Of a stretch of DNA of 34,057 bases, positions 2,436 through 25,163 are shown piece by piece. Position 1 is the first letter of the stretch; each line of letters opens with the position of its first letter. The stretch is from Fuerstiella sp. (GTDB taxonomy: Bacteria; Planctomycetota; Planctomycetia; Planctomycetales; Planctomycetaceae): the NCBI GenBank assembly GCA_029941865.1, contig JAPYTO010000047.1:1-34057 (forward strand). Reading direction: 5' to 3'. The notes under the pieces are model-generated. The model was not told where the DNA came from, searched no databases, and was given only the letters and a program-made list of their open reading frames with translations. The position numbers and the translations under genes were made by a program.

Positions 2436-2852
2436 ATGCCGATCCATGTGCCAAACATCAGATCCCGCCGCGCTCGACGCGGCACAGCCGCAACGGAACT
2501 TGCGGTGTGCCTGCCTATTGTTCTGGTGCTGATCGTTGGGACCATTGAAGCGTGTTCGATGGTCTACCTGAAACAATCACTCAGCGTCGCTGCATACGAA
2601 GGTGTTCGCGTATCTGTCTCGCCAAATGGTGACGCGACCGCTGTTACCACAGCGGCGAATCGAATTCTCACAGCTCGCAACGTCATATCACCAACTATCA
2701 CCGTCTCCCCAGCCAATTTTGCGAATCAACCGGCAGGAACATGGGTTTCTGTCCACGTCACGGCCCCGGCCAATGCAAATTCCATAATCTCTGGTTTCTT
2801 CTACGACGCGATTGTCGTTGATGGCCAGGCCACCATGATGAAGGAATTCTGA
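2436..2852 (+). CDS. TadE-like pseudopilin/pilus assembly protein
   Basis: This 138-residue protein has the TadE pattern: a short basic N-terminus (SRRARRG), then TAATELAVCLPIVLVLIVGT with the conserved Glu at the start of the single hydrophobic helix, then an extracytoplasmic region with YEGVRVSV. TadE-family proteins are minor pseudopilins of tight-adherence (Flp) pili, although in planctomycetes many stand apart from full tad loci. AGGAAG lies nine bases before the ATG. Its stop is only four bases from the next start, so the two are very probably co-transcribed. Confidence 0.8.
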   Translation: MPIHVPNIRSRRARRGTAATELAVCLPIVLVLIVGTIEACSMVYLKQSLSVAAYEGVRVSVSPNGDATAVTTAANRILTARNVISPTITVSPANFANQPAGTWVSVHVTAPANANSIISGFFYDAIVVDGQATMMKEF

Positions 2853-2856
2853 GACC

Positions 2857-3918
2857 ATGATTCAACGACACGCAAAAGCAGACATCCGGAATCGGCGGGG
2901 TGGAATGCTGCCGCTCATCGCCATATGCCTGCCAGTGATTCTTGCTTTCTCGGCATTCGCGATCAACATCGCCTGGATGCAATTAACTCGTACCGAGCTG
3001 CGCACGGCGACGGACGCGGCGGCCCGCGCCGGCAGTCGCATGTTAAGCCGCACTCAGGATACTGATGTCGCCCAAGCAACCGCCATGGAAGCCGCGGCGC
3101 GGAACACCGTCGCCGGAGACTCCCTGGTGCTGGCCAACAGCGACATGATTTTTGGTATGTCGGCGCCCGATGAAGCAGGATCGTGGCTGTTCACCGAACA
3201 GCCTGAAGACACCAACGGCCTGAACGGAGTCCACGTTACGGGCCGCCGAACGAATGGATCTGCGTCCGGGGCGGTTCCCATGTTGTTCACGGGGATCTTT
3301 GACATGGGTCACTTCGAACCAGTCAAGACTGCCGTGGCGTCTCACATGGACCGCGATGTCGTTCTGGTGCTGGACAGATCGGGATCAATGAGAAGATGGA
3401 CGCCTGGCGGAAATCGTTGGTTGGATCTGAAGGCAGCAGTGGCAGCATTTCTGAATGCTCTGTCAACGACGCCCCAGGATGAACTTGTCGGTGTCGTGAC
3501 ATATTCCACCACATCCACACTCGACGAAGACATGACGCTCAACTATGACCACCTGATGACCTCCATCGACAGTCTGTCGGTCAGCGGCATGACCGCCATT
3601 GGACGGGGACTCCAGGACGGCATTGATGGAGTCACGGCTCCTGCCTTCGCTCGGGCCAACGCAGCAAAGACGATCGTTGTGATGACCGACGGCCAGCACA
3701 ACAGGGGAATCATGCCGGAAGCCGTGGCACGGACGGCGCATGACATCTACGGAATCACCGTCCACACAATCACGTTCAGTAGTGGTGCCAATCAATCGCA
3801 CATGCGACTTGTCGCCAGGAACGGCGGCGGTCGCCATTGGCACGCCGACAACCAGGCGGGACTGATCGCCGTCTTTGAAGAAATCGCCAACAACCTGCCC
3901 ACACTGCTGACCCAATAA
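2857..3918 (+). CDS. TadG-like protein with von Willebrand factor A domain
   Basis: This 353-residue protein begins with a TadG-like basic segment and a hydrophobic helix (NRRGGMLPLIAICLPVILAF, residues 12-31). Next comes the ATDAAARAGSRML stretch typical of TadE/TadG exported regions. A von Willebrand A domain follows from about residue 165: VVLVLDRSGSM carries the MIDAS DxSxS motif, a threonine region lies near MTAIGRGLQDG, and IVVMTDGQHN gives the second metal-side Asp. TadG-type proteins with vWA domains are surface or pilus-associated adhesion factors. It lies between two TadE-like genes, which supports one secretion or surface-assembly unit. No cpaF, tadB or tadC gene is in the window. 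Confidence 0.8.
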   Translation: MIQRHAKADIRNRRGGMLPLIAICLPVILAFSAFAINIAWMQLTRTELRTATDAAARAGSRMLSRTQDTDVAQATAMEAAARNTVAGDSLVLANSDMIFGMSAPDEAGSWLFTEQPEDTNGLNGVHVTGRRTNGSASGAVPMLFTGIFDMGHFEPVKTAVASHMDRDVVLVLDRSGSMRRWTPGGNRWLDLKAAVAAFLNALSTTPQDELVGVVTYSTTSTLDEDMTLNYDHLMTSIDSLSVSGMTAIGRGLQDGIDGVTAPAFARANAAKTIVVMTDGQHNRGIMPEAVARTAHDIYGITVHTITFSSGANQSHMRLVARNGGGRHWHADNQAGLIAVFEEIANNLPTLLTQ

Positions 3919-3976
3919 ACCGAAGGTTTTCAGGGCGGTGACTGCGACATTGATCGGTCGGAATAAGGGAATTGTC

Positions 3977-4426
3977 ATGAAACTCGGGTGCAAAAAACGA
4001 ACGAAGCGTCGCTTGGGAACAATGCCGTCCCGCCACGGAGCAACGATCGTTGAATTTGCATTGGTCGCACCCATTTTCTTCATTCTACTGTTCGGGGGAA
4101 TTGAGTTCGCAACGCTCAGCACGATTCGAGCGACATCACACAATGCGGCCTACGAAGGTGCTCGCAAACTGGTGATTCCTGGGGCCGATGTCACCGTCGG
4201 AATAGCCGAAGCCGAACGGATCATGAGTATCATTGGAGTCGACACCCTGGCTGTGACCGTCACGCCGAACGTGATTACGAACAACACTCGCGAAGTCACC
4301 GTCAGCATCTCGATTCCCTACAAAGACAACGCCGTCTTTGTCCCGATGTTTACCGGTGGGCTCACCATTGTCTCCAGCACAACGCTCGCCACCGAACGTT
4401 ACGATGGCATCGTGGCTGGTCCCTGA
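3977..4426 (+). CDS. TadE-like pseudopilin, second copy
   Basis: I chose the ATG at 3977 because AAGGGA lies six bases upstream; a GTG at 3938 would add 13 unconvincing residues. The 149-residue protein has a strongly basic start (KKRTKRR), then RHGATIVEFALVAPIFFILL with the TadE-type Glu at the start of the helix, and the same extracytoplasmic YEGAR motif as the copy at 2436. It ends the HAMP-TadE-vWA-TadE run. The two TadE proteins are diverged, so they probably have distinct roles in one structure. Confidence 0.8.
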   Translation: MKLGCKKRTKRRLGTMPSRHGATIVEFALVAPIFFILLFGGIEFATLSTIRATSHNAAYEGARKLVIPGADVTVGIAEAERIMSIIGVDTLAVTVTPNVITNNTREVTVSISIPYKDNAVFVPMFTGGLTIVSSTTLATERYDGIVAGP

Positions 4427-4888: not shown

Positions 4889-5290
4889 ATGAAGCCCCCC
4901 ATCGTCCGTTATCCGCAGAAAAGTGACACGCCGACATCGCATCTGCCCTTCAGCCCGTGCGTCGTCGTCGGCAATCTGGTGTTCGTGTCCGGTCAGGCAT
5001 CCGTGGACGCGTCCGGCAGGATCGTTTCCGATTCCTTTGCAGGCGAGTTCCGTCGGTCCATGGAAAACATGAAATCCGTGTTGGTCGCCGCCGGATGTGA
5101 CCTGTCCCACGTCGTTCAGACGCGAAACTATGTTCGAGACGACGAAGATCTGGCGGCATTCAACGAACTGTACAAAGACTGTTTTTCGGCCCCCTTTCCG
5201 GCCCGAACCACGATTACTCGCTGCCTGCCGGATTCATTACGATTTGAAATCGAATGTGTCGCCGTGATTCCGGCGACCGCTGAAGAGTAA
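4889..5290 (+). CDS. RidA family enamine/imine deaminase
   Basis: This 133-residue protein matches the usual 125-135 residue length of the YjgF/YER057c/UK114 (RidA) family when started at the ATG at 4889; a GTG at 4832 would add 19 atypical residues. Family features are LVFVSGQASVDASG, the central VVQTRNYVRD, the catalytic-site FPART with the conserved Arg that binds the substrate carboxylate, and EIECVAV near the end. RidA hydrolyses reactive enamine/imine intermediates such as 2-aminoacrylate from pyridoxal-phosphate enzymes in the cytoplasm. The GNLVFVSGQ start of the fold is slightly divergent from E. coli RidA, so it may be a RidA subfamily member with a different substrate. Confidence 0.88.
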   Translation: MKPPIVRYPQKSDTPTSHLPFSPCVVVGNLVFVSGQASVDASGRIVSDSFAGEFRRSMENMKSVLVAAGCDLSHVVQTRNYVRDDEDLAAFNELYKDCFSAPFPARTTITRCLPDSLRFEIECVAVIPATAEE

Positions 5291-5517
5291 ATCGGGACGA
5301 ATGACGGTGTGATTGCCCGCACTTCGAAGAACGATCTCAACAACAGTTTGAGCTCTCAGGGTCTACCTGATAAAAGTCCGTTCTTTACATGCGCTGGAAC
5401 AGTTTACGTATTGTCGTGGACGATACTGGCTCGTGGGAGTAACGAAACTGCTATTAAAAAGCGTCTTCACGGCCACAAATCAGCGTAAAACGCTGTCACC
5501 TCAACGCAACACCCAAA

Positions 5518-6084
5518 ATGCCAAATATCGCTGCTGATAAACCTCGCTGGAGATCCACCACCGTTCTGGCCGTGCGTCATCAGGGCCGGATTGTCCTGGG
5601 GGCCGACGGACAGGTCACGTACGGCAACACAATCATGAAGTCGGACACGAAGAAGCTTCGACGAATGCTGGATGGCAAGGTACTGGTCGGCTTTGCCGGA
5701 TCCACGGCCGATGCCTTTGCTCTGATGGAGCGGTTTGAAGAGAAGGTGAAGGACTATCCCGGTAACATCGCTCGCGCGGCCACCGAACTGGCTCGTGACT
5801 GGCGTACGGACAGGGCACTTCGAAAACTGGAAGCCATGATGATCGTCGCCGATGCAGAGCTTTCATTGCTGCTGACGGGGCAGGGCGACGTGGTTCAGCC
5901 AACCGATGGAGTCGTCGGCATCGGATCCGGCGGTCCTTACGCGACGTCTGCCGCCAAAGCGTTGGTGAAGCATTCCGATCTTTCCGCAGAACAGATCGTT
6001 CGTGAGTCACTGGCGGTGGCTGCAGAAATCGACATCTACACCAACAACAACGTCATCGTCGAGGAATTGGAATCGTCGACGTGA
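5518..6084 (+). CDS. hslV: HslV, peptidase subunit of the HslUV ATP-dependent protease
   Basis: This is a 188-residue Ntn-hydrolase with the threonine N-terminus TTVLAVRHQGRIVLGADGQ. Thr14 is the expected nucleophile, so a 13-residue leader has to be removed, unlike E. coli HslV where only Met is lost. The conserved DTKKLRRM supplies the active-site Lys, and GSGGPYATSAAKAL is typical of the family. It forms the dodecameric proteolytic core in the cytoplasm and is activated by HslU, encoded 206 bases downstream. The ATG has no clear Shine-Dalgarno sequence. Confidence 0.95.
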   Translation: MPNIAADKPRWRSTTVLAVRHQGRIVLGADGQVTYGNTIMKSDTKKLRRMLDGKVLVGFAGSTADAFALMERFEEKVKDYPGNIARAATELARDWRTDRALRKLEAMMIVADAELSLLLTGQGDVVQPTDGVVGIGSGGPYATSAAKALVKHSDLSAEQIVRESLAVAAEIDIYTNNNVIVEELESST

Positions 6085-6290
6085 GTCTAGAGTAAGCCGC
6101 TGAATCTGTCGTCCGAAATGCGGCCACGTTGCTGTTTCAGGGACGCCCTCAAATCCACTGCGGGGATCACACAACCAGATTCAAGTGACGCTCTGAATCG
6201 ATTGCCCGGCTCTGGTTGGGCAATACAAAAAATGCGTGCCAAACCAACATTGTACTTTCAATAAACGACAACTCCACACCAACCGAAAAC

Positions 6291-7667
6291 ATGTCAGAAA
6301 ACACAACCCCGTTGACACCTCATCAGGTCGTCGAAAAACTCAGCGAACACATCGTTGGACAGGACAGCGCCAAACGAGCGGTCGCCGTAGCCCTCAGGAA
6401 TCGCTGGCGCTGGCAGAATCTTTCTGACGAGATGCGCAAGGAAGTCACCCCGCGCAACATCCTGATGATTGGTCCCACGGGAGTCGGTAAGACCGAAATT
6501 ACACGGCGACTGGCCAAGCTGACAAGTGCTCCGTTCGTCAAGGTCGAAGCGACCAAGTACACAGAAGTCGGCTATTACGGTCGCGACGTGGAAAGTGTGA
6601 TCCGAGACCTTGTCGAAGCCGCCATCGGACTCGTCCGTACGGCCAAGCGAGCTGACATTGAAGAGGAAGCCAAACGTGGCGTCGAAGATCGTCTGCTGGA
6701 ACTTCTGGTTCCCTTCGAACCGTCATCATCGCTTTCGTCGACTGACGAAAATGATAAAGACGCGGAATCGCAGCAGTCCAAACACCTACGGACCGTCGAA
6801 AAGTTTCGAGACATGCTGCGAGACGGCAAGCTGGAAGACCGCATGGTCGAACTGTCCACGGAACAACGAAACTCGCCCGTGCAGGTCCTCACAAACATGG
6901 GCGGCATGGAGCAGATGGATATGGATCTGCAGGGCATGCTGGACAAAATGATGCCCAAACAGAATACGTCACGAAGACTTACCGTGGCCAATGCTCGGCG
7001 AGTCCTGCATGAGCAGGAAGTGGAATCCTTACTCGACAAGGACAGCATTCAGGAAGAAGCCATCCATCGCGCCGAAGAAACCGGCATCGTCTTCATCGAC
7101 GAGATCGACAAAGTCTGCAGCAGCGGCGAAGGCAGCAAGTCTGCGGACGTCAGTCGCCAGGGAGTCCAGCGCGATCTGCTGCCCATTGTCGAAGGAACAA
7201 CCGTTCAGACACGGTACGGATCGGTTTCCACCGAGAAAATCATGTTCATCGCTGCCGGCGCGTTTCATCGGTCCAGACCGTCGGACCTGATGCCCGAACT
7301 GCAGGGACGTTTTCCCATTCGTGTGGAACTGAGCGATCTGACCAAAGAAGATTTCGTTCGTATTCTGACCGAACCCTCCGGTTCCATCACTCGGCAGTAC
7401 GTCGAATTACTGGCCGTTGATGGAATCACGGTTGAGTACACGGACGACGGACTGCATGCGATAGCCGAAATCGCCTTCTTTGTGAATCAAACGACTCAGA
7501 ACATTGGAGCTCGGCGTCTGCAGACGATCATGGAACGCCTGCTGGAAGACGTCAGCTACGAAGCTCCCGAATGCGGACACAAGACGGTCGTTGTTGACGA
7601 AGCCTACGTGAATGGCAAGCTGGACGACATCCGCAAAGACGAAGACCTCAGCCGCTTTGTGCTTTGA
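6291..7667 (+). CDS. hslU: HslU, ATPase subunit of the HslUV protease
   Basis: This 458-residue AAA+ unfoldase starts best at the ATG at 6291 (MSENTTPLTP); the longer frame opens at a TTG at 6216 with unrelated sequence. It has Walker A GPTGVGKT (61-68), the pore-loop region KYTEVGYYGRDV with its GYVG-like motif, a variable I-domain (about 110-235), Walker B IVFIDEIDKV (about 266-275), and the sensor region RFPIRVEL. The C-terminus ends RFVL, the tail that docks into HslV and opens its active site. It converges with the next gene, with only 30 bases between the stops. Confidence 0.96.
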   Translation: MSENTTPLTPHQVVEKLSEHIVGQDSAKRAVAVALRNRWRWQNLSDEMRKEVTPRNILMIGPTGVGKTEITRRLAKLTSAPFVKVEATKYTEVGYYGRDVESVIRDLVEAAIGLVRTAKRADIEEEAKRGVEDRLLELLVPFEPSSSLSSTDENDKDAESQQSKHLRTVEKFRDMLRDGKLEDRMVELSTEQRNSPVQVLTNMGGMEQMDMDLQGMLDKMMPKQNTSRRLTVANARRVLHEQEVESLLDKDSIQEEAIHRAEETGIVFIDEIDKVCSSGEGSKSADVSRQGVQRDLLPIVEGTTVQTRYGSVSTEKIMFIAAGAFHRSRPSDLMPELQGRFPIRVELSDLTKEDFVRILTEPSGSITRQYVELLAVDGITVEYTDDGLHAIAEIAFFVNQTTQNIGARRLQTIMERLLEDVSYEAPECGHKTVVVDEAYVNGKLDDIRKDEDLSRFVL

Positions 7668-16383: not shown

Positions 16384-19300
16384 TTAATCGTCCAATTGTT
16401 CGTACAGCGGCAAGTGTCTGTAATAGATTTCAAGCAACAGCAGTTTCATGGAGGTGGAATACAAACGGCCACCTCGTTTTTCCCAGTTGTCGACCGGGTC
16501 CCATGTGCCCGCCATGTGGCCGTTCTTGATCTGAGTGTCCACAACCATGTCGCGCAGAGCTGCGTTCCATTCCTGCCAATAGCTGCCCTGCATGTGATAC
16601 ATCACCTGAGTCCCGTAGTACCAATAATACGACGTTCGTGCCTGTTTGACTTCGGGCAGTTGAGTCAGAAGATAGTCGGCGCCTGCTCGCATGGCCGGGT
16701 CGTTGCGACCGGTTCCAAGAAACTGCAGGCACAGCAGACCTTCGGCTGACATCGCGGGCGACACCCTGCGGTTGGTGTAACCGAATTGTCCACCGACGGG
16801 TTGGTTGCCTTCAACGGATTTCAACCAGCGTCGAATGCCCTCATGTGTCTCGATCGGGACATCAAGGCCGGCCATTTCACCGCTTTTCAACGCCATCATC
16901 TGCCAGCCCACGACGGACGTATCGCCCGCTTCACCCGGGTTGTAGCGCCAACCGCCGGTCTTTTTATTCTGCGCGTTGACGATGTATTGCAGGGATCGTT
17001 GAGCGGGTTCACGGAAGTCCGGGTGCTGCGTCATGCCGAACGCTTCACACATCGCGATGGCCGCGATGCCCTGGCTGTACATTTTCTGTTTATCACCGGG
17101 GCCCAGCAGCTCGCCGTCAGGCTTCTGGTGATCGATCAGCCATTGCAGACCGGTCGCCACGACCTTCGCATATGCGCCATCAACGTGAGTGTTTCCTGCG
17201 GCGAGCAACGGTAACAGCGCAAGTCCGGTTGCTGCTGTGTTCGACGCTTCGGCCCCTTGCCCATTGCATGTCGGGTGCTTCCCGTTGCAGTTCTCCTGAA
17301 ATCGATTCAGGCTCCAGCTTCCATCGGTGTTCTGATGTTGCACCAGCCACAGCAGGCCGCGATTGACGGCCTTTTCAGATGCTTCTGTGCCACCAAAAAG
17401 TTCAATGTACTGCTTGCGAGTGTCTCCCTGACGCAGCGTAAACATTGATCTTAGACCGACACTGTCCGCAGCCAGCGACACTGCACTGGCCTTTGCGAAG
17501 GGACGATTAAGCTGACTAGCCAGTTTGTGGAAAGCAGGCGGAGCGTTGTTGCGCTCCAGACTGAGCGTGCCTACCACGATTCGCTCCTTGATGCGACTGG
17601 ACGGGCCGGTCATCTTCTGTGGCGTAAGTGGTACCGGCGCTGACAGTTCAGATCGTTCAATCACCAGCATCACGGTGTCGTCGGACAAATCCTTTGATTC
17701 TGCAGCGTCAGGAGCGTCGCTTCCGGGCAGCGTGTATTTTTCTGTCTCAAGCTGTGCAATATCGGCGTGATCATGCGGGACCGGCGACGGAGCTATTTCT
17801 CGCGGCGGAACGGCAGGCATCTTCGCTGGATCTGCCGGGCGATTTTCAATATTCGAGATCGGAGCATTCTGGTCCACAAATGGCTGTGGCTCCCGGCGCT
17901 GGCTCCGCTGTCCTGAGGTCGCAAACGGGACGGGCGACGGCACCCTCGCAGCGACCCTCGCGATCTCAATCAGCGGAATTGGCTCATCCGCCACACGCTC
18001 GGTCGTTTCCACGGGCGCTGCTGGCAGGACAACAGACTCCGCCAACTTCGCGGCATCCGGATTATCCGGTATCGGAGCAACCCGCATCTCCAACGGATTC
18101 AGCGGCAACGCAGCTGCCTCTTGTTCTACCCCAATCCGTATGGCCGGCGGAGCCACACTTATTGACGCCTTGGGACGCACCGTTACCGCCGTGGGGTTCT
18201 CGACGTCGAAACGGACAGGCTGTACCAGCAGTATCGTTCGAGGCATGTCGATCTGTGTGGCCACCGGTCGGTCTGCCGGCCTCCTGACGGGCTCCAGAAC
18301 GACGGACGTGTTCTGCAGTTCCGGAACATCGAACGCATTCACAGGAGTCGGTCGCGACAGAGACGGCATTGGCGCCGATTTTGTTGCCGGCCGCTGAGGT
18401 TGTGCGCGATTCGAAGGAACGAAAAGCAATTGCCGCGGAGACAACGTTCGGGCAACATCCAGCGAAATCGTCGGCAGCGGACTGTCAGTACGTTCGGGCA
18501 CGCTGAACGTTTCGGTCTCCTGCCGAGTAACCTCCGGCTGCGGCAGGTCCTCGAGCGACTGCAGGTCGGCCAGCTTTTCGTACGCAGCGCGACCGTCTTC
18601 ATGTGACTGGTGCTGATTGTCGTCAAACAGTTGAGTTGACGCCTCAGCATCGAACGTCTTTGACGTAATGACGTCAATGACCTTCGGCAGGTTCCACACC
18701 GCCAGCACAAACAGAAGCAGCACGTGAATCATCACACTTCCCGCGAAGAATCGGGTGGCCCCGGCCGCCTGCACAAATCTCCTGCGCGTGGAAAACAGAA
18801 TTGCCGCCAGCATTAGAACCAGCAGCGTAATCGCCACGCCGTACGGCCAGATTGCAGAAACTGCACGCAGATTCGACGTGTCCCACCCGGACTCGATCCT
18901 TACTTCGTCGGCGCGACTCAGCAGCAATCGTTCACTTCCGTTTCGATGCGCTGAAAAGACCAGCGTAAAGCCTTCCGGTGAGAGGGCGGGCTCTGATTCA
19001 TGAGCGGGCGTGTTGATTCCCGGTCCGAGGTTTTCTGGTGGCGTCGGCGTCGCCCCGGCAATGTTGCTGCGAAACAGATCGAGGTTCGGGTTTTCGCCGC
19101 CACGCACAGGACGGTCGGACGCAAAATACAGAAACGATCCGCTGGACGAAACAAACGGAGCACCTTCGTTGCTGTCCGGTCGGTTGATGGCGTCAATTGC
19201 ATTGACGGATTCCCAGGTTGAGGCTCCGTTATTTCGCACGGCGGCGTACATGTCAAACGTGTTCGATTTCCGAAGACGCAGCGTGCCACTCCATTCGTCC

Positions 19301-19971
19301 TGCGGACTCTCATTCGAGTTCCGGGAATTGTTAATTTCTTTGATGCGATTTGATGCAAAGTAGAGCGTCTGCCCATCCGGTGAAATCGCCGGATCGTATT
19401 CGTCTGCGGATGAATTGACGGGACGACCCGCGTTAACGGGCGTGGTCCATGCTCCTTCGTGCCATTCCGATACATAGATGTCGAAGCCACCTGTACCGCC
19501 CGCTCGATCGGAATACAAGAACAGCTGCCGGCCGTCAGCTGAGGGGATCGCACCGACGTCATCGGCTGAAGAGTTAAGTGCGGCAACCGGTTCGCCCGGC
19601 TGCCATTTGCCGTGAATCAGTCGACTGCGATAGATATCGGACTGACTTCTGCGGGATCGAAGGGCGAAGTACAGAGTCGTCCCACCATCAGCAAAGCGGG
19701 GAGAAATCAGCGAGGCGTCGGTGATGTCTGTTGGTACGACGGATGACAGTTCGTCTGCCGGGCGCCAAACGATTCGTCGCTGCTGCATCGTGCTCAGATC
19801 GGCCCAATGTCCAGCTCCGCCAACGGAGACCACACCGTTGCGAGGTTTCGGGACGATCCAGACCGTGAAGGCCAACAGGATAACGACCACAGCAAACTTC
19901 GGAGAACGCAGCCATGCGTATCCGGATTGAGCGGCTGTTTCAGTCGTTGAGATTGAAGTGTTTTTTTTCAA
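16384..19971 (-). CDS. TolB-like propeller / TonB-like helix / Pro-rich linker / terpenoid-cyclase-like toroid fusion protein
   Basis: This is a 1195-residue membrane protein. TM1 (about 26-41) is followed by a periplasmic PD40 beta-propeller (about 85-350, with repeats such as SPDGQTLYFASNR at 197-209 and SPEGFTLVFSAHR at 331-343). TM2 (374-395) leads to the cytoplasmic turn STRRRF. TM3 (408-427) carries S412 and H416, the SxxxH pattern of TonB and TolA. A Pro-rich linker (about 475-790) then leads to an alpha/alpha toroid (about 868-1195) with QW-type repeats (QNTDGSW, QNKKTGGW) but no DxDD cyclase motif. ExbD and ExbB are encoded just upstream, suggesting force transduction across the envelope. 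The start is a TTG within TTGAAAAAAAA; the next in-frame ATG lies after TM1. Function beyond this is inference. Confidence 0.85.
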   Translation of the reverse strand: MKKNTSISTTETAAQSGYAWLRSPKFAVVVILLAFTVWIVPKPRNGVVSVGGAGHWADLSTMQQRRIVWRPADELSSVVPTDITDASLISPRFADGGTTLYFALRSRRSQSDIYRSRLIHGKWQPGEPVAALNSSADDVGAIPSADGRQLFLYSDRAGGTGGFDIYVSEWHEGAWTTPVNAGRPVNSSADEYDPAISPDGQTLYFASNRIKEINNSRNSNESPQDEWSGTLRLRKSNTFDMYAAVRNNGASTWESVNAIDAINRPDSNEGAPFVSSSGSFLYFASDRPVRGGENPNLDLFRSNIAGATPTPPENLGPGINTPAHESEPALSPEGFTLVFSAHRNGSERLLLSRADEVRIESGWDTSNLRAVSAIWPYGVAITLLVLMLAAILFSTRRRFVQAAGATRFFAGSVMIHVLLLFVLAVWNLPKVIDVITSKTFDAEASTQLFDDNQHQSHEDGRAAYEKLADLQSLEDLPQPEVTRQETETFSVPERTDSPLPTISLDVARTLSPRQLLFVPSNRAQPQRPATKSAPMPSLSRPTPVNAFDVPELQNTSVVLEPVRRPADRPVATQIDMPRTILLVQPVRFDVENPTAVTVRPKASISVAPPAIRIGVEQEAAALPLNPLEMRVAPIPDNPDAAKLAESVVLPAAPVETTERVADEPIPLIEIARVAARVPSPVPFATSGQRSQRREPQPFVDQNAPISNIENRPADPAKMPAVPPREIAPSPVPHDHADIAQLETEKYTLPGSDAPDAAESKDLSDDTVMLVIERSELSAPVPLTPQKMTGPSSRIKERIVVGTLSLERNNAPPAFHKLASQLNRPFAKASAVSLAADSVGLRSMFTLRQGDTRKQYIELFGGTEASEKAVNRGLLWLVQHQNTDGSWSLNRFQENCNGKHPTCNGQGAEASNTAATGLALLPLLAAGNTHVDGAYAKVVATGLQWLIDHQKPDGELLGPGDKQKMYSQGIAAIAMCEAFGMTQHPDFREPAQRSLQYIVNAQNKKTGGWRYNPGEAGDTSVVGWQMMALKSGEMAGLDVPIETHEGIRRWLKSVEGNQPVGGQFGYTNRRVSPAMSAEGLLCLQFLGTGRNDPAMRAGADYLLTQLPEVKQARTSYYWYYGTQVMYHMQGSYWQEWNAALRDMVVDTQIKNGHMAGTWDPVDNWEKRGGRLYSTSMKLLLLEIYYRHLPLYEQLDD

Positions 19972-20054: not shown

Positions 20055-20459
20055 CTAACGTTCCTGCAGGGCCGCGATGCGATAATCCATCCCGACTTCA
20101 TTGCACAGTCCCATGACACGGACGGCGTGCTTCAACGCGACCTCACCGTCGCCACGAATGAGTGCCGACTGATGTGGATTGTTTCTGTAAGTTTCCCGAA
20201 TGATCTGGCCGAGTTGCTGTTCGTCTATTTCCTGCTGCACAATTTTATAGGTTCCGCTGCGCAATACGTTGATAACGAGTTCCGGAGTCATGGACAGGGG
20301 CTGGGCCTGTGTCACTTCCGGCAACACGACGTCCAGTTCACGTTCCTCCTGATCGTAACGCGTGGCGACCAGAAAAAAGATCAGCAGCAGAAAGACGACG
20401 TCAATGACAGGTGTCAAATTGGGACCTTCAAAGTCGTTCGTTTCGATCGGCAGTTTCAT
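20055..20459 (-). CDS. ExbD/TolR family biopolymer transport protein
   Basis: This 134-residue protein starts at the ATG at 20459 (MKLPIETNDFEG), in line with the family; an upstream ATG at 20510 would add 17 unlikely residues. The single N-terminal helix is LTPVIDVVFLLLIFFLV, with Asp20 as the proton-carrying residue that ExbD/TolR share. The periplasmic part has the usual LDVVLPEV and the C-terminal ALIRGDGEVALKHAVRVM pattern. With ExbB it forms a proton-driven motor in the inner membrane. It sits between exbB and the TonB-like fusion gene, all on the minus strand. Confidence 0.9.
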   Translation of the reverse strand: MKLPIETNDFEGPNLTPVIDVVFLLLIFFLVATRYDQEERELDVVLPEVTQAQPLSMTPELVINVLRSGTYKIVQQEIDEQQLGQIIRETYRNNPHQSALIRGDGEVALKHAVRVMGLCNEVGMDYRIAALQER

Positions 20460-20587
20460 GGCGTGTTTCGTTTCGTGATGGCTTATTCCAGGTTGACTCT
20501 GACTCCCCATCTTCTGATTGAGATGACAGAGCCACGAATCTCCGTTTCACACGACCAACGTAGTTTTTTTTTATCAACAGCAGATCA

Positions 20588-21448
20588 TCAGCTGACGTCT
20601 ACGAGGCTGTCCTGTGTCCGAGCACTGGCCTTGTCGTCCTCTTCCGGAGCTTGAGACGCACTCACAACACGTTTTTCCACACGTGCAAAGCACGGAAATG
20701 TCGACATCAATGCCACATCGATTTCCCGAAAAAACTGTTCAATCTTTCCGTTGAAAAAGGCGGCGCACAGTAACGACGGAATGGCGATTGACAGGCCAGC
20801 AGCAGTTGTAACCAGAGCCATGTAAATACCCTGAGCCAGCATTTCCCCTTTGCCAAGTCCCGCCTGACTGGCCGTCTTGAATGCAATGATCATGCCGACG
20901 ACCGTACCGAGCAGTCCGATCAGTGGCGCCACACTACCAGCCACCGTCAATGGCCGAACGCGACTCCGCAACGCCCCCATTTCCCGCACCGCGGCGTCTT
21001 CCATGGCCTTCTCCACTTCAGGGAGAGGACGGCCGGCCCGTTGCAGGCCTGCGTTAAGTATGGTCGCGATGGGGACCTCGTGACGATCACAAACCGTCTG
21101 CAGATCCGCCGGTGTGGATCGATCGCTGTCCACCACACGTTTCAATTCGCTGACCAGGTCCGCCGGCACGATGCAGACACGGCGAGTATTGACGAGTCGT
21201 TCAATCGCCACGGTCACACTGACCAGCGAAAACAGACCGAGCGCGCCCATGAACAGAAGCCCGGTGAGTCCCGTGGCCAGCATTAGTGACAGAATGGAAT
21301 CATCCGCTGGAGGAGATTCTTCTGCGACTTCGGCTACTGGTGGAGCAGGTGCCGCATCAGCCACCTCATCAGCCGACAGTAACGGCAGCAATCCAGCCAG
21401 CAGCAAAAACGTCGATGCCGTGAGAACGCGACTATTCCAGGATGACAT
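20588..21448 (-). CDS. MotA/TolQ/ExbB family proton channel protein
   Basis: This 286-residue protein has a signal-like N-terminus (1-26), an Ala/Pro/Glu-rich spacer, and a first channel helix (about 53-88, ending in AIERLV). A cytoplasmic domain follows, then the two diagnostic helices RPLTVAGSVAPLIGLLGTVVGMIIAF and GIYMALVTTAAGLSIAIPSLL. Small residues and the conserved Thr in these helices line the ion path in ExbB/TolQ. The extra N-terminal periplasmic segment is common in planctomycete and other ExbB proteins. It partners ExbD at 20055 and is preceded by the TPR gene, with a 64-base gap. Confidence 0.9.
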   Translation of the reverse strand: MSSWNSRVLTASTFLLLAGLLPLLSADEVADAAPAPPVAEVAEESPPADDSILSLMLATGLTGLLFMGALGLFSLVSVTVAIERLVNTRRVCIVPADLVSELKRVVDSDRSTPADLQTVCDRHEVPIATILNAGLQRAGRPLPEVEKAMEDAAVREMGALRSRVRPLTVAGSVAPLIGLLGTVVGMIIAFKTASQAGLGKGEMLAQGIYMALVTTAAGLSIAIPSLLCAAFFNGKIEQFFREIDVALMSTFPCFARVEKRVVSASQAPEEDDKASARTQDSLVDVS

Positions 21449-21512: not shown

Positions 21513-24500
21513 TCAGCTCCCGGCCTTCAGTCCGGCCAGAAGTTTTGCCGCATCCTTTGCTCGAACGTGCTCCGGGAACCGATCCACAACGATCTGTAAC
21601 GATTCCCGAGCCTTGTCAGGCATCTTCAACTCAATGAAGCAACGACCCGCTTCGAAATGACCAAGAGCCTGCCACTCCGGATACGGATAACCAAGTGCCG
21701 CTTCCAGAAAGTGCTCCCACGCAACATCATATTTTTTTTGTGCAAAGGCACACTCGCCCATCATGAATCGTGCCTTGGCGGCGGATTCCGTGTTCGTTTC
21801 TTTCGTGACCCGATCGTACATCTGCATCGCCTGATCGAGATGGTTCTGATTCTGCAGAGCAAACCCAAGTCCGTACCATGCTTCGCTGACCTGTTCGAAT
21901 TCCGGAAACTGTTTCGTCAGAGCTTCGAAGTGTTTCTGGCTGACAGGCCACTGCTTGAGTTCGTTCGCACAGGTGCCGGTTCGATAAATTGCTCGCGAAT
22001 GATATTTCTCAGACTTCACATCAATCGTCTTTTGATACCAAGGCAGTGAATCCTGGTATTTTTTCTGACGAAACATGCTTTCGGCCACCAGCCACGTGGC
22101 GTCGATCAGCAGATCACCATCAGGATGCTCAGTAATCTGAGCCTGCAGAGTTGCGGCTGCCTGGACGAACCCTTCCGTCGCGAACTGCGAACTTCCTTTC
22201 CTAAATTGAAGTCGTTCACGCAACTTCTGGTTTGTTGTCTTTGCCAGGCCCTTGTCACTCGCCGCAACGGCTTCGGCAAACTGCTTTTCATCGGCATGAA
22301 ACCCCGCAACACGCAGCCAGCATTCGCCGGCCAGTACGCTGTCGGGGAACATGGTCGCCAGTTGACGAAACGCGTCGATGGATTCCTTCTGTCGTTTGGT
22401 TTCTGAATATGCAAACGCAAGTTCGTACCAAACCTTATCCGCGGCGGTGTAGTCGGGTTTCGCCTTCAGCAGATCCAGGGCAATCTGAATCGTCTGGTCA
22501 TGCTGCTTCAGTCCCGCGTGGCAAAGGGCGAGCGAATAGCGGGCATCCAGCGCTGCGTTTTCCTCTGCCGGATCTCGTTTCAGAAACTCCGTCAAATCAC
22601 TAACGGCCGCGGCGTACTTATTCTGCCGGTGCTGACTCAGACCACGCAGGTAGTACGCGTTTGTGGCAATATCTGACTTCGGATACTTTGTCAGCAGAGC
22701 ATTCAAATGACTGACAGATCCATTGTAATCAGCTTTGTCAAACAGTGCCGATCCGGAACCGTAGGCCGCCAGCGGGGCGAATTCACTGTCGGGAAATTTC
22801 GTGACAACCTGCTGGAACGCCGCAACAGCGGGATCAAGCCGATTCTGCTGAGCCTGAATCTCCCCCAGCCGAAACCATGCGCGATCGCCGAATTCGCTTT
22901 TCGGATACTTCTGATTCAGCTGATTCAGTTCTGCGATCGCGGCGTCCGCCTGATTCGTGTCGACAAGCCCCGTCGCGAGCGCCAGCAGCACCTCATCACC
23001 ACGTCCCCAGTCACCCATCGTCTGTCGCGAAGCTCGCAGTGCGGTGACACCTTCCGTCGGACGTTTCAGACTGAGATGACTGATGCCTATCAGGAACTGT
23101 GCTTCAGCCAGCAGTTCCGGCTCTTTCAGTTTTGGCAGCGCCGCCTTAAGAAATGCGATTCCAGGATCGTGCTGTTCGAGAGAATACAGGCAGAACCCCA
23201 CGCGAACAAGCGATCGTGGCGTGTAAACATGTTCCTTAAACTCGCCGACCAGTCGACGATAGAGTTCGTCGGCTTTCGCGAAGTCAGCGGTGTCACCCAC
23301 GATTCGACTTTCCGCCGCGACGAACAGCGCGTCAGGCAGTAAGGGATGTTTCGAAAATGCGGCGTTGTTCAGAAACGCATCGCTCTGCTGCTGTGCATCC
23401 GTCAGTTCATTAAGCTGCAGTCCGGTCAATGCCGCTCGATAGCGTGCGTCTGCGGCAAGTTTGTCTGCGGCGAATTCGTCCGCAAACTGAGCGTACAATT
23501 TGACGGTTTCCGGCTTCCGCTTTTCGTCTTCGTAGATTGCCTCAATCCGAGTGAACTTCAGCTCGGGAATGAATTCGGTCTGCGGCCAGTCCGCGATGGC
23601 CTTGTCCAGAATCCCGATCGCAGCAGGCGCCTGCTTCAGTTGAATCAGCGTCCGCCCGAGCCACCACGCTGCCTCAGCCGCTTCGTTCTGCTTTGCATCA
23701 ACGACCGCCTTGAACGCATTCTGCGCCTGCGGAAACTGATTCGAAAGAAACCGGCATTTGCCGCCTTCCAGCAACGCCACATTGACGTATTCACTCTGTT
23801 TGAACTTCTGCGGCAGAGATTCGAACAATTCCGCCGCTTGTGGCAACTGCTTCTGTTCATGCTTCGACCGCGCGTGATGAAACAGTGCGAGGTCGGCCAT
23901 GGCGAATTCTTTCACGGCAGCAGCCGTCGCAAATTCCTTTTCCGCTTCAGCGTGCTTTGTCAGTGCAGTCAGGGCGAGCCCCAGTCGCAGGCGGCATTCG
24001 GCCACCTTGTTATCCTGTGGGAATTTCTGCAAAAACGAGCGATACGTCTGAACAGCCTCGGCGGTCTTTTCCAATTCCTGCTGAGTCGTCGCCAACGCAA
24101 ACATTGCGGTAGGCAGCAGCGGACTGTTTCCGTGCTGATCGATTAATGTCTGGTACACCACGATCGCCCCGGCGTGATCGCCGGCCTGAAACACGCACTC
24201 CGCCTGATAGTACAATGCAGAGGGAATGTGCTTGCTCTTTGCATACTGAGACGACACGTTGGCGAATTCCGCTGCAGCCACGCGAAAGGCGTCCGGCGTC
24301 TTCGCTGCCAGAGCTGTGCTGTACAGTGCCAGACCCAGATTGAACTGCACCGCGTCGCGCTGCTCGAATTCCGTGAACTGCTTCAGAACCTTCCGAAACG
24401 TCCCAACAGCCTCGGCGTTTCCCGTTTGAAGCTGACAGACTCCCAGATGATAGTGAGCATTAGCGATTCGCTCGCCCTTGGCGAAGTTCGCAATGAACTG

Positions 24501-24689
24501 GGTCCAGCGAACTGCCGCCTGCTTAAAGAGTTTCTTCCTTTGAAACCCAAGAGCGACTGCGTATTCACGCGTCGCGACGGGATCGACGGATTTTTCCTGC
24601 GCAAACACCGGACCGAACGTGACCGCAATGGGAACAATCACGACACAAGTGAGAACACCGATCATACGACGACGTGGGCCGTCAGACAT
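21513..24689 (-). CDS. Large exported tetratricopeptide-repeat protein (YbgF/CpoB- or BamD-like repeats)
   Basis: I chose the ATG at 24689: GAGGAGG lies five bases upstream and the protein then begins with a good signal peptide (MSDGPRRRMIGVLTCVVIV..., cleavage near VFA-Q). The open frame extends to 24950, but that part runs through a repeat. The mature part (about 1020 of 1058 residues) is tandem TPR units. Many have the pattern of YbgF/CpoB and BamD, for example LNQKYPKSEFGDRAWFRLGE, TKFPDSEFAPLAAYGSG and LTKYPKSDIATNAYYLRGL. Such proteins scaffold envelope complexes in the periplasm. As the first gene of the ExbB-ExbD operon it occupies the role that CpoB has beside Tol. It is much longer than CpoB (about 260 residues). 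Confidence 0.88.
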   Translation of the reverse strand: MSDGPRRRMIGVLTCVVIVPIAVTFGPVFAQEKSVDPVATREYAVALGFQRKKLFKQAAVRWTQFIANFAKGERIANAHYHLGVCQLQTGNAEAVGTFRKVLKQFTEFEQRDAVQFNLGLALYSTALAAKTPDAFRVAAAEFANVSSQYAKSKHIPSALYYQAECVFQAGDHAGAIVVYQTLIDQHGNSPLLPTAMFALATTQQELEKTAEAVQTYRSFLQKFPQDNKVAECRLRLGLALTALTKHAEAEKEFATAAAVKEFAMADLALFHHARSKHEQKQLPQAAELFESLPQKFKQSEYVNVALLEGGKCRFLSNQFPQAQNAFKAVVDAKQNEAAEAAWWLGRTLIQLKQAPAAIGILDKAIADWPQTEFIPELKFTRIEAIYEDEKRKPETVKLYAQFADEFAADKLAADARYRAALTGLQLNELTDAQQQSDAFLNNAAFSKHPLLPDALFVAAESRIVGDTADFAKADELYRRLVGEFKEHVYTPRSLVRVGFCLYSLEQHDPGIAFLKAALPKLKEPELLAEAQFLIGISHLSLKRPTEGVTALRASRQTMGDWGRGDEVLLALATGLVDTNQADAAIAELNQLNQKYPKSEFGDRAWFRLGEIQAQQNRLDPAVAAFQQVVTKFPDSEFAPLAAYGSGSALFDKADYNGSVSHLNALLTKYPKSDIATNAYYLRGLSQHRQNKYAAAVSDLTEFLKRDPAEENAALDARYSLALCHAGLKQHDQTIQIALDLLKAKPDYTAADKVWYELAFAYSETKRQKESIDAFRQLATMFPDSVLAGECWLRVAGFHADEKQFAEAVAASDKGLAKTTNQKLRERLQFRKGSSQFATEGFVQAAATLQAQITEHPDGDLLIDATWLVAESMFRQKKYQDSLPWYQKTIDVKSEKYHSRAIYRTGTCANELKQWPVSQKHFEALTKQFPEFEQVSEAWYGLGFALQNQNHLDQAMQMYDRVTKETNTESAAKARFMMGECAFAQKKYDVAWEHFLEAALGYPYPEWQALGHFEAGRCFIELKMPDKARESLQIVVDRFPEHVRAKDAAKLLAGLKAGS

Positions 24690-24870
24690 CTCCGCCTCCT
24701 CTGCGATGAGCTGCGAAGCAGCACTGCACAAACCGGACTGATCAGTTAATTGGCTGATGGTAGTGAGGAATCGGGACGGCATCAATCGACTCGGCCCGAT
24801 ACGGTACGTGGCGTCGAGTCCTGAAGTGGCTTTTTCCTCTTTGGCGCAGACGTCCCTCGTGCAAGGGCAG

Positions 24871-24883
24871 GCGGGACGCCCGC
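24871..24883. repeat. Small palindrome in a likely dispersed repeat
   Basis: GCGGG-ACG-CCCGC lies within a GC-rich stretch (about 24857-24897) between the divergent TPR and esterase genes. The 474-nt gap 24690-25163 should hold both promoters; I see no other gene in it. The stretch would be translated if the TPR gene started at 24950, which argues against that start. Confidence 0.5.
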
Positions 24884-25163
24884 ACCACAACATGTTGCAA
24901 AATGGTCCCGCGAACTCCGAACAGGATGGTTCTTCGGCCGGTTGACTCATTAGAATTCAGGCATTGACAGTACCGCCCTCCCTCACGTGTCGAGCCCGAC
25001 ACCAAACTCGGATCGCCCGATTCCGAGTCAAAATCTCTCCTCCACACAAAGCCTGCACACGCGCAGAACTCATTCGCAGCCGTGTTTTCAGCCGGTGCTG
25101 TTTAGTTGCCCCTCGTACATGCCACGAACTGATGTCAGCGAGACAACAGGAAAGAAACTGAAC

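Follow-up and report, generated by a model that had tools for sequence, protein, structure and literature searches.

A candidate motor-coupled transducer of Fuerstiella that joins a PD40 propeller, an SxxxH helix and a squalene-cyclase-type toroid

In other bacteria, proton-driven motors related to ExbB/ExbD supply the energy for taking up nutrients and maintaining the outer membrane; planctomycetes have an unusual envelope. We analysed a 34,057-nucleotide stretch of planctomycete DNA (hereafter the window; Fuerstiella sp., contig JAPYTO010000047.1 of assembly GCA_029941865.1) that encodes an ExbB/ExbD pair and, next to it, one protein with the order transmembrane helix 1 (TM1), β-propeller, TM2, loop, TM3, proline-rich linker and α/α toroid. 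The closest precedent is a class of transducers from Planctomycetes–Verrucomicrobia–Chlamydiae (PVC) and other bacteria that combine a TM helix bearing the SHLS motif (Ser-x3-His-x6-Leu-x3-Ser) with a vWA effector domain (Williams-Jones et al. 2025; PMC12204202). In PVC bacteria those transducers lie downstream of tetratricopeptide-repeat (TPR), tolQ-like and tolR-like genes, and further such systems are held to be still awaiting discovery (PMC12204202). The window protein resembles them in its SHLS-type TM helix, its disordered or Pro-rich linker, an effector that is not homologous to the C-terminal domains of TonB or TolA, and a locus with TPR, tolQ-like and tolR-like genes; it differs in ending in an α/α toroid, in adding the TM1–propeller–TM2 unit and in having one ExbD gene where they have a pair. 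Pfam found no vWA domain in the window protein.

With TonB and TolA the protein shares an N-in TM helix with S-x3-H-x6-L, a Pro-rich periplasmic linker and ExbB/ExbD (TolQ/TolR) partners, but unlike them it lacks TonB_C and TolA domain III, has three TM helices, an inserted propeller and a toroid effector, and carries Asn at the fourth SHLS position. Pfam returned no match to TonB_C or the TolA C-terminal domain in the window protein, which by its C-terminal domain is not a member of the TonB/TolA family. We read it, with a probability of roughly 0.8, as a periplasmic force transducer driven by the proton-motive force (PMF), TonB/TolA-like in action and equipped with non-homologous effector domains. 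The first-pass annotation of this DNA knew of no described system with such an architecture. That statement stands for the propeller and toroid forms, of which we found no description in the open-licence papers searched, but not for the broader design, given that vWA-ended SHLS transducers had already been described (PMC12204202).

Architecture of the candidate transducer

The transducer open reading frame (ORF) starts at TTG and contains zero internal stops. Pfam matched PD40 (1.7e-25) and SQHop_cyclase_C (9.1e-10), each above its gathering score, so that profile searches uphold the domain calls made in the first-pass annotation. The AlphaFold2 (AF2) model of residues 1–500 contains helices at 24–39, 366–394 and 406–426 and a beta domain at 64–364. 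In 27 of 27 propeller-type proteins the loop between TM2 and TM3 has a positive net charge, as would suit a cytoplasmic turn, and sequence and topology signals back the placement of the toroid at the distal end of the Pro-rich linker, which spans 382–683 residues among toroid-bearing propeller-type proteins. The intact ORF, the Pfam matches, hydropathy, the AF2 model and a congener thus confirm the topology originally proposed, in which TM1, propeller, TM2, a short turn, the SxxxH helix TM3, the linker and the toroid follow one another.

That congener (Fuerstiella sp., locus L045, the same record as L124) encodes a protein of identical architecture with 84% identity to the window protein, and the full-length fusion also occurs in other genera at ~44–47% identity. 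Relative to the congener, dN/dS is 0.10 for the propeller, 0.16 for TM2–TM3, 0.04 for the segment after TM3, 0.17 for the linker, 0.05 for the neck and toroid, and 0.64 for the short TM1 segment. Because the fusion recurs at full length in the congener and in other genera, with low dN/dS (0.04–0.17 from the propeller on), an assembly or frame artefact was ruled out.

Table 1. Features of the transducer and its operon in the window (aa, amino-acid residues).
Feature	Position	Strand	Basis and remarks
Transducer, TM1–propeller–TM2–loop–TM3(SxxxH)–linker–toroid	16384..19971	-	1195 aa, one intact ORF
TM1 (aa 23–41), N-terminus cytoplasmic	19849..19905	-	Hydropathy; AF2 helix 24–39; net positive N-terminus
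PD40 β-propeller (aa 64–364), modelled five-bladed, periplasmic	18880..19782	-	Pfam, NCBIfam, AF2, fold search
TM2 (aa 366–394)	18790..18876	-	AF2 helix, hydropathy
TM3 (aa 406–426), proposed ExbB-docking helix	18694..18756	-	AF2 helix; conserved in orthologues
S412-VMI-H416 (SxxxH); L423 of SHLS also present	18724..18738	-	Sequence, family conservation, background rate
HQSHEDG (aa 454–460), near-invariant in the family f1 propeller clade, directly following TM3	18592..18612	-	Two alignments
Pro-rich periplasmic linker (aa 430–843, ~415 aa), about 13% Pro	17443..18684	-	Composition; weaker constraint
α/α toroid (aa 844–1195), squalene-hopene-cyclase fold, without DxDD	16387..17442	-	Pfam, PDB sequence search, AF2, VIA, motif scan
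ExbD/TolR	20055..20510	-	Pfam ExbD 3.4e-22
ExbB/TolQ	20588..21448	-	Pfam 9.9e-28; TolQ structures 9.3e-10; key residues
Large TPR protein with signal-peptide-like stretch, YbgF/CpoB- and BamD-like repeats	21513..24950	-	TIGR02795 5.7e-89, 14 stretches; conserved first operon gene

The SxxxH helix and the motor genes

Three of the four SHLS positions are matched in TM3 (S412, H416 and L423), the fourth being N427. We compared it with the E. coli helices of TolA (...IISAVLHVILFAALIWSSF) and TonB (...LLSVCIHGAVVAGLLYTS...) as given in PMC12215075, which reports the last two SHLS residues to be less conserved in Ton. Strict SxxxH was present in the anchoring helix of 51 of the 62 sampled toroid proteins, which were taken from across the class, a set that shares ancestry and hence does not represent 62 independent events, compared with 12 of 522 TM helices (2.3%) in other ORFs of the same loci; the frequency in toroid proteins is far above chance. 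The motif occurred in 32 of the 38 toroid proteins that adjoin ExbB/ExbD and in 19 of the 24 that have no such neighbours, and it has been kept in versions with one, two or three TM helices that have otherwise diverged widely. The motif closes with His in 23 of the 27 propeller-type proteins and with Asn in the other 4. In view of these Asn variants, and of Ala/Gly variants at the serine position, SxxxH in its strict form was discarded as a universal rule.

The operon runs TPR–ExbB–ExbD–transducer on one strand, with ExbB and ExbD immediately upstream of the transducer, which is last, and with intergenic gaps of ≤83 bp when the listed ORF starts are used; in ExbD, translation probably begins at the internal M of MKLP, which is the start in relatives. 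The same three genes precede the propeller-type protein in those relatives whose contigs extend far enough upstream. In an alignment with E. coli ExbB and TolQ, ExbB keeps the equivalents of Ser34, Thr148, Thr181 and Pro190. Ser34 and Pro190 of ExbB are part of the network that contacts TonB (PMC12215075). In the ExbB tree, clades mirror the transducer types, with all three groups accounted for by two changes; ExbB phylogeny therefore groups like toroid phylogeny, and the operons are thus passed on as units. Sequence, synteny and topology signals together support the earlier claim that TM3 is an inner-membrane SxxxH helix co-encoded with ExbB/ExbD.

One locus departs from this gene order: L222 (6560–10102 (-)) holds a 1180-residue ORF with ExbB at its C-terminus (964–1164); ExbD and a propeller transducer follow downstream. 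Its long N-terminal extension stands where the TPR gene normally sits and had no Pfam TPR match at E 0.01; our guess is that it is TPR. Elsewhere in the window, positions 2436–4426 (+) hold three small genes whose products have TadE/Tad-like domains and, in one case, a vWA domain, and positions 5518–7667 (+) encode a proteasome-type peptidase followed by an AAA ATPase, an HslV/HslU-like pair.

Propeller, toroid and natural variants

The first-pass annotation described the propeller as TolB merged into the transducer, a view that holds for the PD40 family and for the best Foldseek match in the PDB, which is TolB (E 1.6e-12), but not beyond. In NCBIfam, PorE ranked first (5e-24) and both PorE and CHU_0125 scored far above TolB (6.6e-6), the PorE match reaching 84.5 bits against a cut-off of 600 and being confined to the propeller region. 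Re-ranking with VIA instead favours propellers of the GH43/GH62/GH130 type, and the AF2 strand pattern, in a model of moderate confidence, suggests five blades, where TolB has six. PorE has been described as carrying a five-bladed propeller together with TPRs (PMC7463736). Like TolB and PorE, the window protein has a cell-envelope PD40 propeller; unlike them, it has neither a TolB N-terminal domain (PF04052) nor an OmpA domain, both absent from it by Pfam, and its propeller lies between two inner-membrane helices of a motor-coupled protein, a placement unlike that of secreted TolB. The missing N-domain ruled out a true TolB.

The AF2 model of the toroid is confident (pLDDT 89.6, pTM 0.90), and among solved structures the squalene-hopene cyclases come closest to it (VIA Z 26.3, rmsd 3.2 and 287 aligned residues to 2sqc; PDB sequence search E 1.6e-12 to 1gsz). 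The toroid shares with this family, which has the class II terpene cyclase fold, the α/α barrel and QW-like repeats, in which Q880, G884 and W886 are conserved in 64–65 of 68 homologues. It differs in being a single toroid tethered in the periplasm and in the DxDD catalytic motif, which a motif scan found in 0 of 68 toroid homologues. The earlier label "terpenoid-cyclase-like" is thus apt for the fold and not for the catalytic motif, and an active squalene cyclase was ruled out. Also highly conserved among the homologues are Y965, R1009, D1017, Y1115/Y1118/Y1119, W1135, R1169 and E1181; judging from the fold, the near-invariant aromatic and polar positions would line a cavity. The window genome also encodes shorter toroids without a predicted membrane helix, apparently exported (L013, 7326–8441 (+); L014, 5863–7035 (-)), which carry largely the same conserved residues.

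Toroid-family proteins were present in 98 of 98 genomes of a first sample (same family or class) and in 218 of 246 sampled Planctomycetota genomes. The window genome alone has several paralogues, one of which (L009) sits in the same kind of operon without a propeller. The propeller form was found in 13 of 170 genomes of family f1 and, in more divergent versions, in further families of Planctomycetota, and ExbB/ExbD lie beside it wherever the upstream sequence suffices; these finds overturned the restriction to one family that the first count had suggested. A search for the architecture in other PVC genomes, which the first-pass annotation had proposed and which we carried out within Planctomycetota, thus shows it to recur in f1 and beyond. 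A toroid tree of the sampled class unites the propeller-type toroids in a single clade, whose sister group comprises three-helix forms without a propeller, and it shows one apparent propeller loss (L046). Both the L046 protein and the sister three-TM clade, which never shows a propeller, exclude the propeller as an indispensable part.

Several variants were observed. The L046 protein (5029–7623 (+)), a close relative, reads TM1–TM2–TM3(SVIVH)–toroid with the propeller gone, through natural loss or assembly error. At L213 (3782–6175 (-)), a 797-residue protein has a toroid inserted inside its propeller and lacks the SxxxH helix; a propeller–TM3(SVMAH)–toroid protein is its tandem neighbour, together with ExbB/ExbD. 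L214 (5502–8285 (+)), L215 and L216 encode propeller–TM2–TM3(SLxxH) proteins beside ExbB/ExbD in which a carboxypeptidase-regulatory-like C-terminus replaces the toroid. A protein 67% identical to the N-terminal half of the window protein occurs on a contig titled Candidatus Kuenenia stuttgartiensis (L125), a record that is probably mislabelled.

Proposed mechanism, rival readings and significance

The reading as a PMF-driven transducer draws on observed features: the domains and the sequence in which they stand, the signals of topology, the arrangement of the genes, conservation, and joint inheritance with ExbB. From these we infer motor docking, force transduction and a distal-envelope location of the toroid. 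ExbB and ExbD would be the motor, and TM3 would dock on the exterior of ExbB through S412 and H416, like TonB. TM1 and TM2 would keep the propeller next to the motor, on the periplasmic side of the inner membrane; there it would probably bind the exported TPR protein or peptidoglycan. The Pro-rich linker would cross the periplasm bearing the toroid. With its conserved cavity the toroid would most likely grip a partner or ligand located at the cell wall or outer membrane, and the motor would thereby pull on that partner.

Some observations weigh against this reading. The N-terminal AF2 model (residues 1–500) has a pLDDT of 70.7 and a pTM of 0.59, which is moderate confidence. His416 is replaced by Asn in a subclade (L048–L051), and Ser412 by Ala in one propeller subclade and by Gly in L048. 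The equivalent of ExbB Trp38, which contacts His20 of TonB, is V, M, A or L, so that docking may use a surface that does not match that of Ton in every detail. Twenty-four sampled toroid proteins have no ExbB/ExbD neighbour (19 of them still with SxxxH). In its favour, TonB_C, TolB_N and the TonB-receptor plug were not detected in the window genome, although these absences are provisional because this genome is about 90.5% complete; TonB_C and TolB_N were also not detected in the complete congener genome G004.

A rival reading is that of an incidental SxxxH in a membrane-anchored toroid protein that merely neighbours an unrelated ExbB/ExbD pair. Such a coincidence would fit the many toroid proteins that do not adjoin ExbB/ExbD and the variable S and H positions, but we regard it as very improbable given a motif present in 51/62 proteins against a background of 2.3% and kept in one-, two- and three-TM versions of diverged sequence, and given the match between ExbB and toroid phylogenies. 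An uptake device, with the toroid as the end that contacts outer-membrane transporters, would explain why motor and helix are of the Ton type and would suit the 16 of 39 relatives with TonB-dependent receptor plugs; it is nevertheless quite unlikely, as the plug is undetected in the window genome and 22 other relatives, and receptor-bearing genomes often hold ordinary TonB_C as well.

The toroid might instead be an active periplasmic enzyme (a lyase, hydrolase or epimerase acting on glycans or lipids) that the SxxxH tether only positions or lets the motor gate, in which case pulling on a partner would be beside the point. Its highly conserved polar and aromatic positions, a fold common to glycan-active enzymes such as epimerases and GH76, weak pectate-lyase profile matches in relatives and the toroids without a predicted membrane helix in the same genome all speak for catalysis, which we still consider unlikely: no catalytic motif was identified, DxDD is missing throughout the homologues, and in L214–L216 the effector domain is swapped but TM3 and the motor genes are kept. 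Somewhat better odds, though still well on the doubtful side, attach to a planctomycete replacement of Tol-Pal that does the jobs of TolA and TolB in one protein and, where the cell buds or divides, sets an outer-membrane or peptidoglycan-binding protein in motion. Among 39 genomes, TonB_C occurs in 9 (absent from 30) and TolB_N in 0, and the toroid family is universal in the first sample (98/98); the operon includes a CpoB/YbgF-like TPR gene, and the propeller is nearest to PorE and TolB. Yet that propeller has no TolB N-domain and lies between inner-membrane helices, no Pal partner was identified, though no search was aimed at one, and the propeller form is patchy (13/170 in f1), and therefore not an essential housekeeping system, which the whole toroid family might be.

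The PMF-driven transducer reading takes further the notion, dating from 2025, of modular motor outputs able to bear unrelated effector domains, and the natural His-to-Asn clade offers a test of the role of the motif histidine. Many planctomycete genomes have no detectable TonB, TolB or TonB-receptor domains, and the SxxxH-anchored toroid family is a concrete candidate for energising their outer envelope: it is phylum-wide, with some members carrying a propeller and many lying beside their own ExbB/ExbD motors. Toroid-type arms may thus be a planctomycete route by which energy reaches the outer envelope. More tentatively, and at somewhat less than even odds, Planctomycetota could possess a class of PMF-driven force transducers, spread through the whole phylum, that pair an SxxxH helix with interchangeable periplasmic modules (propeller, toroid, carboxypeptidase-regulatory-like and, as others have described, vWA), largely replacing Ton and Tol-Pal as the main energy link between inner membrane and outer envelope. 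If so, the propeller-and-toroid form would be one elaborate member of that class.

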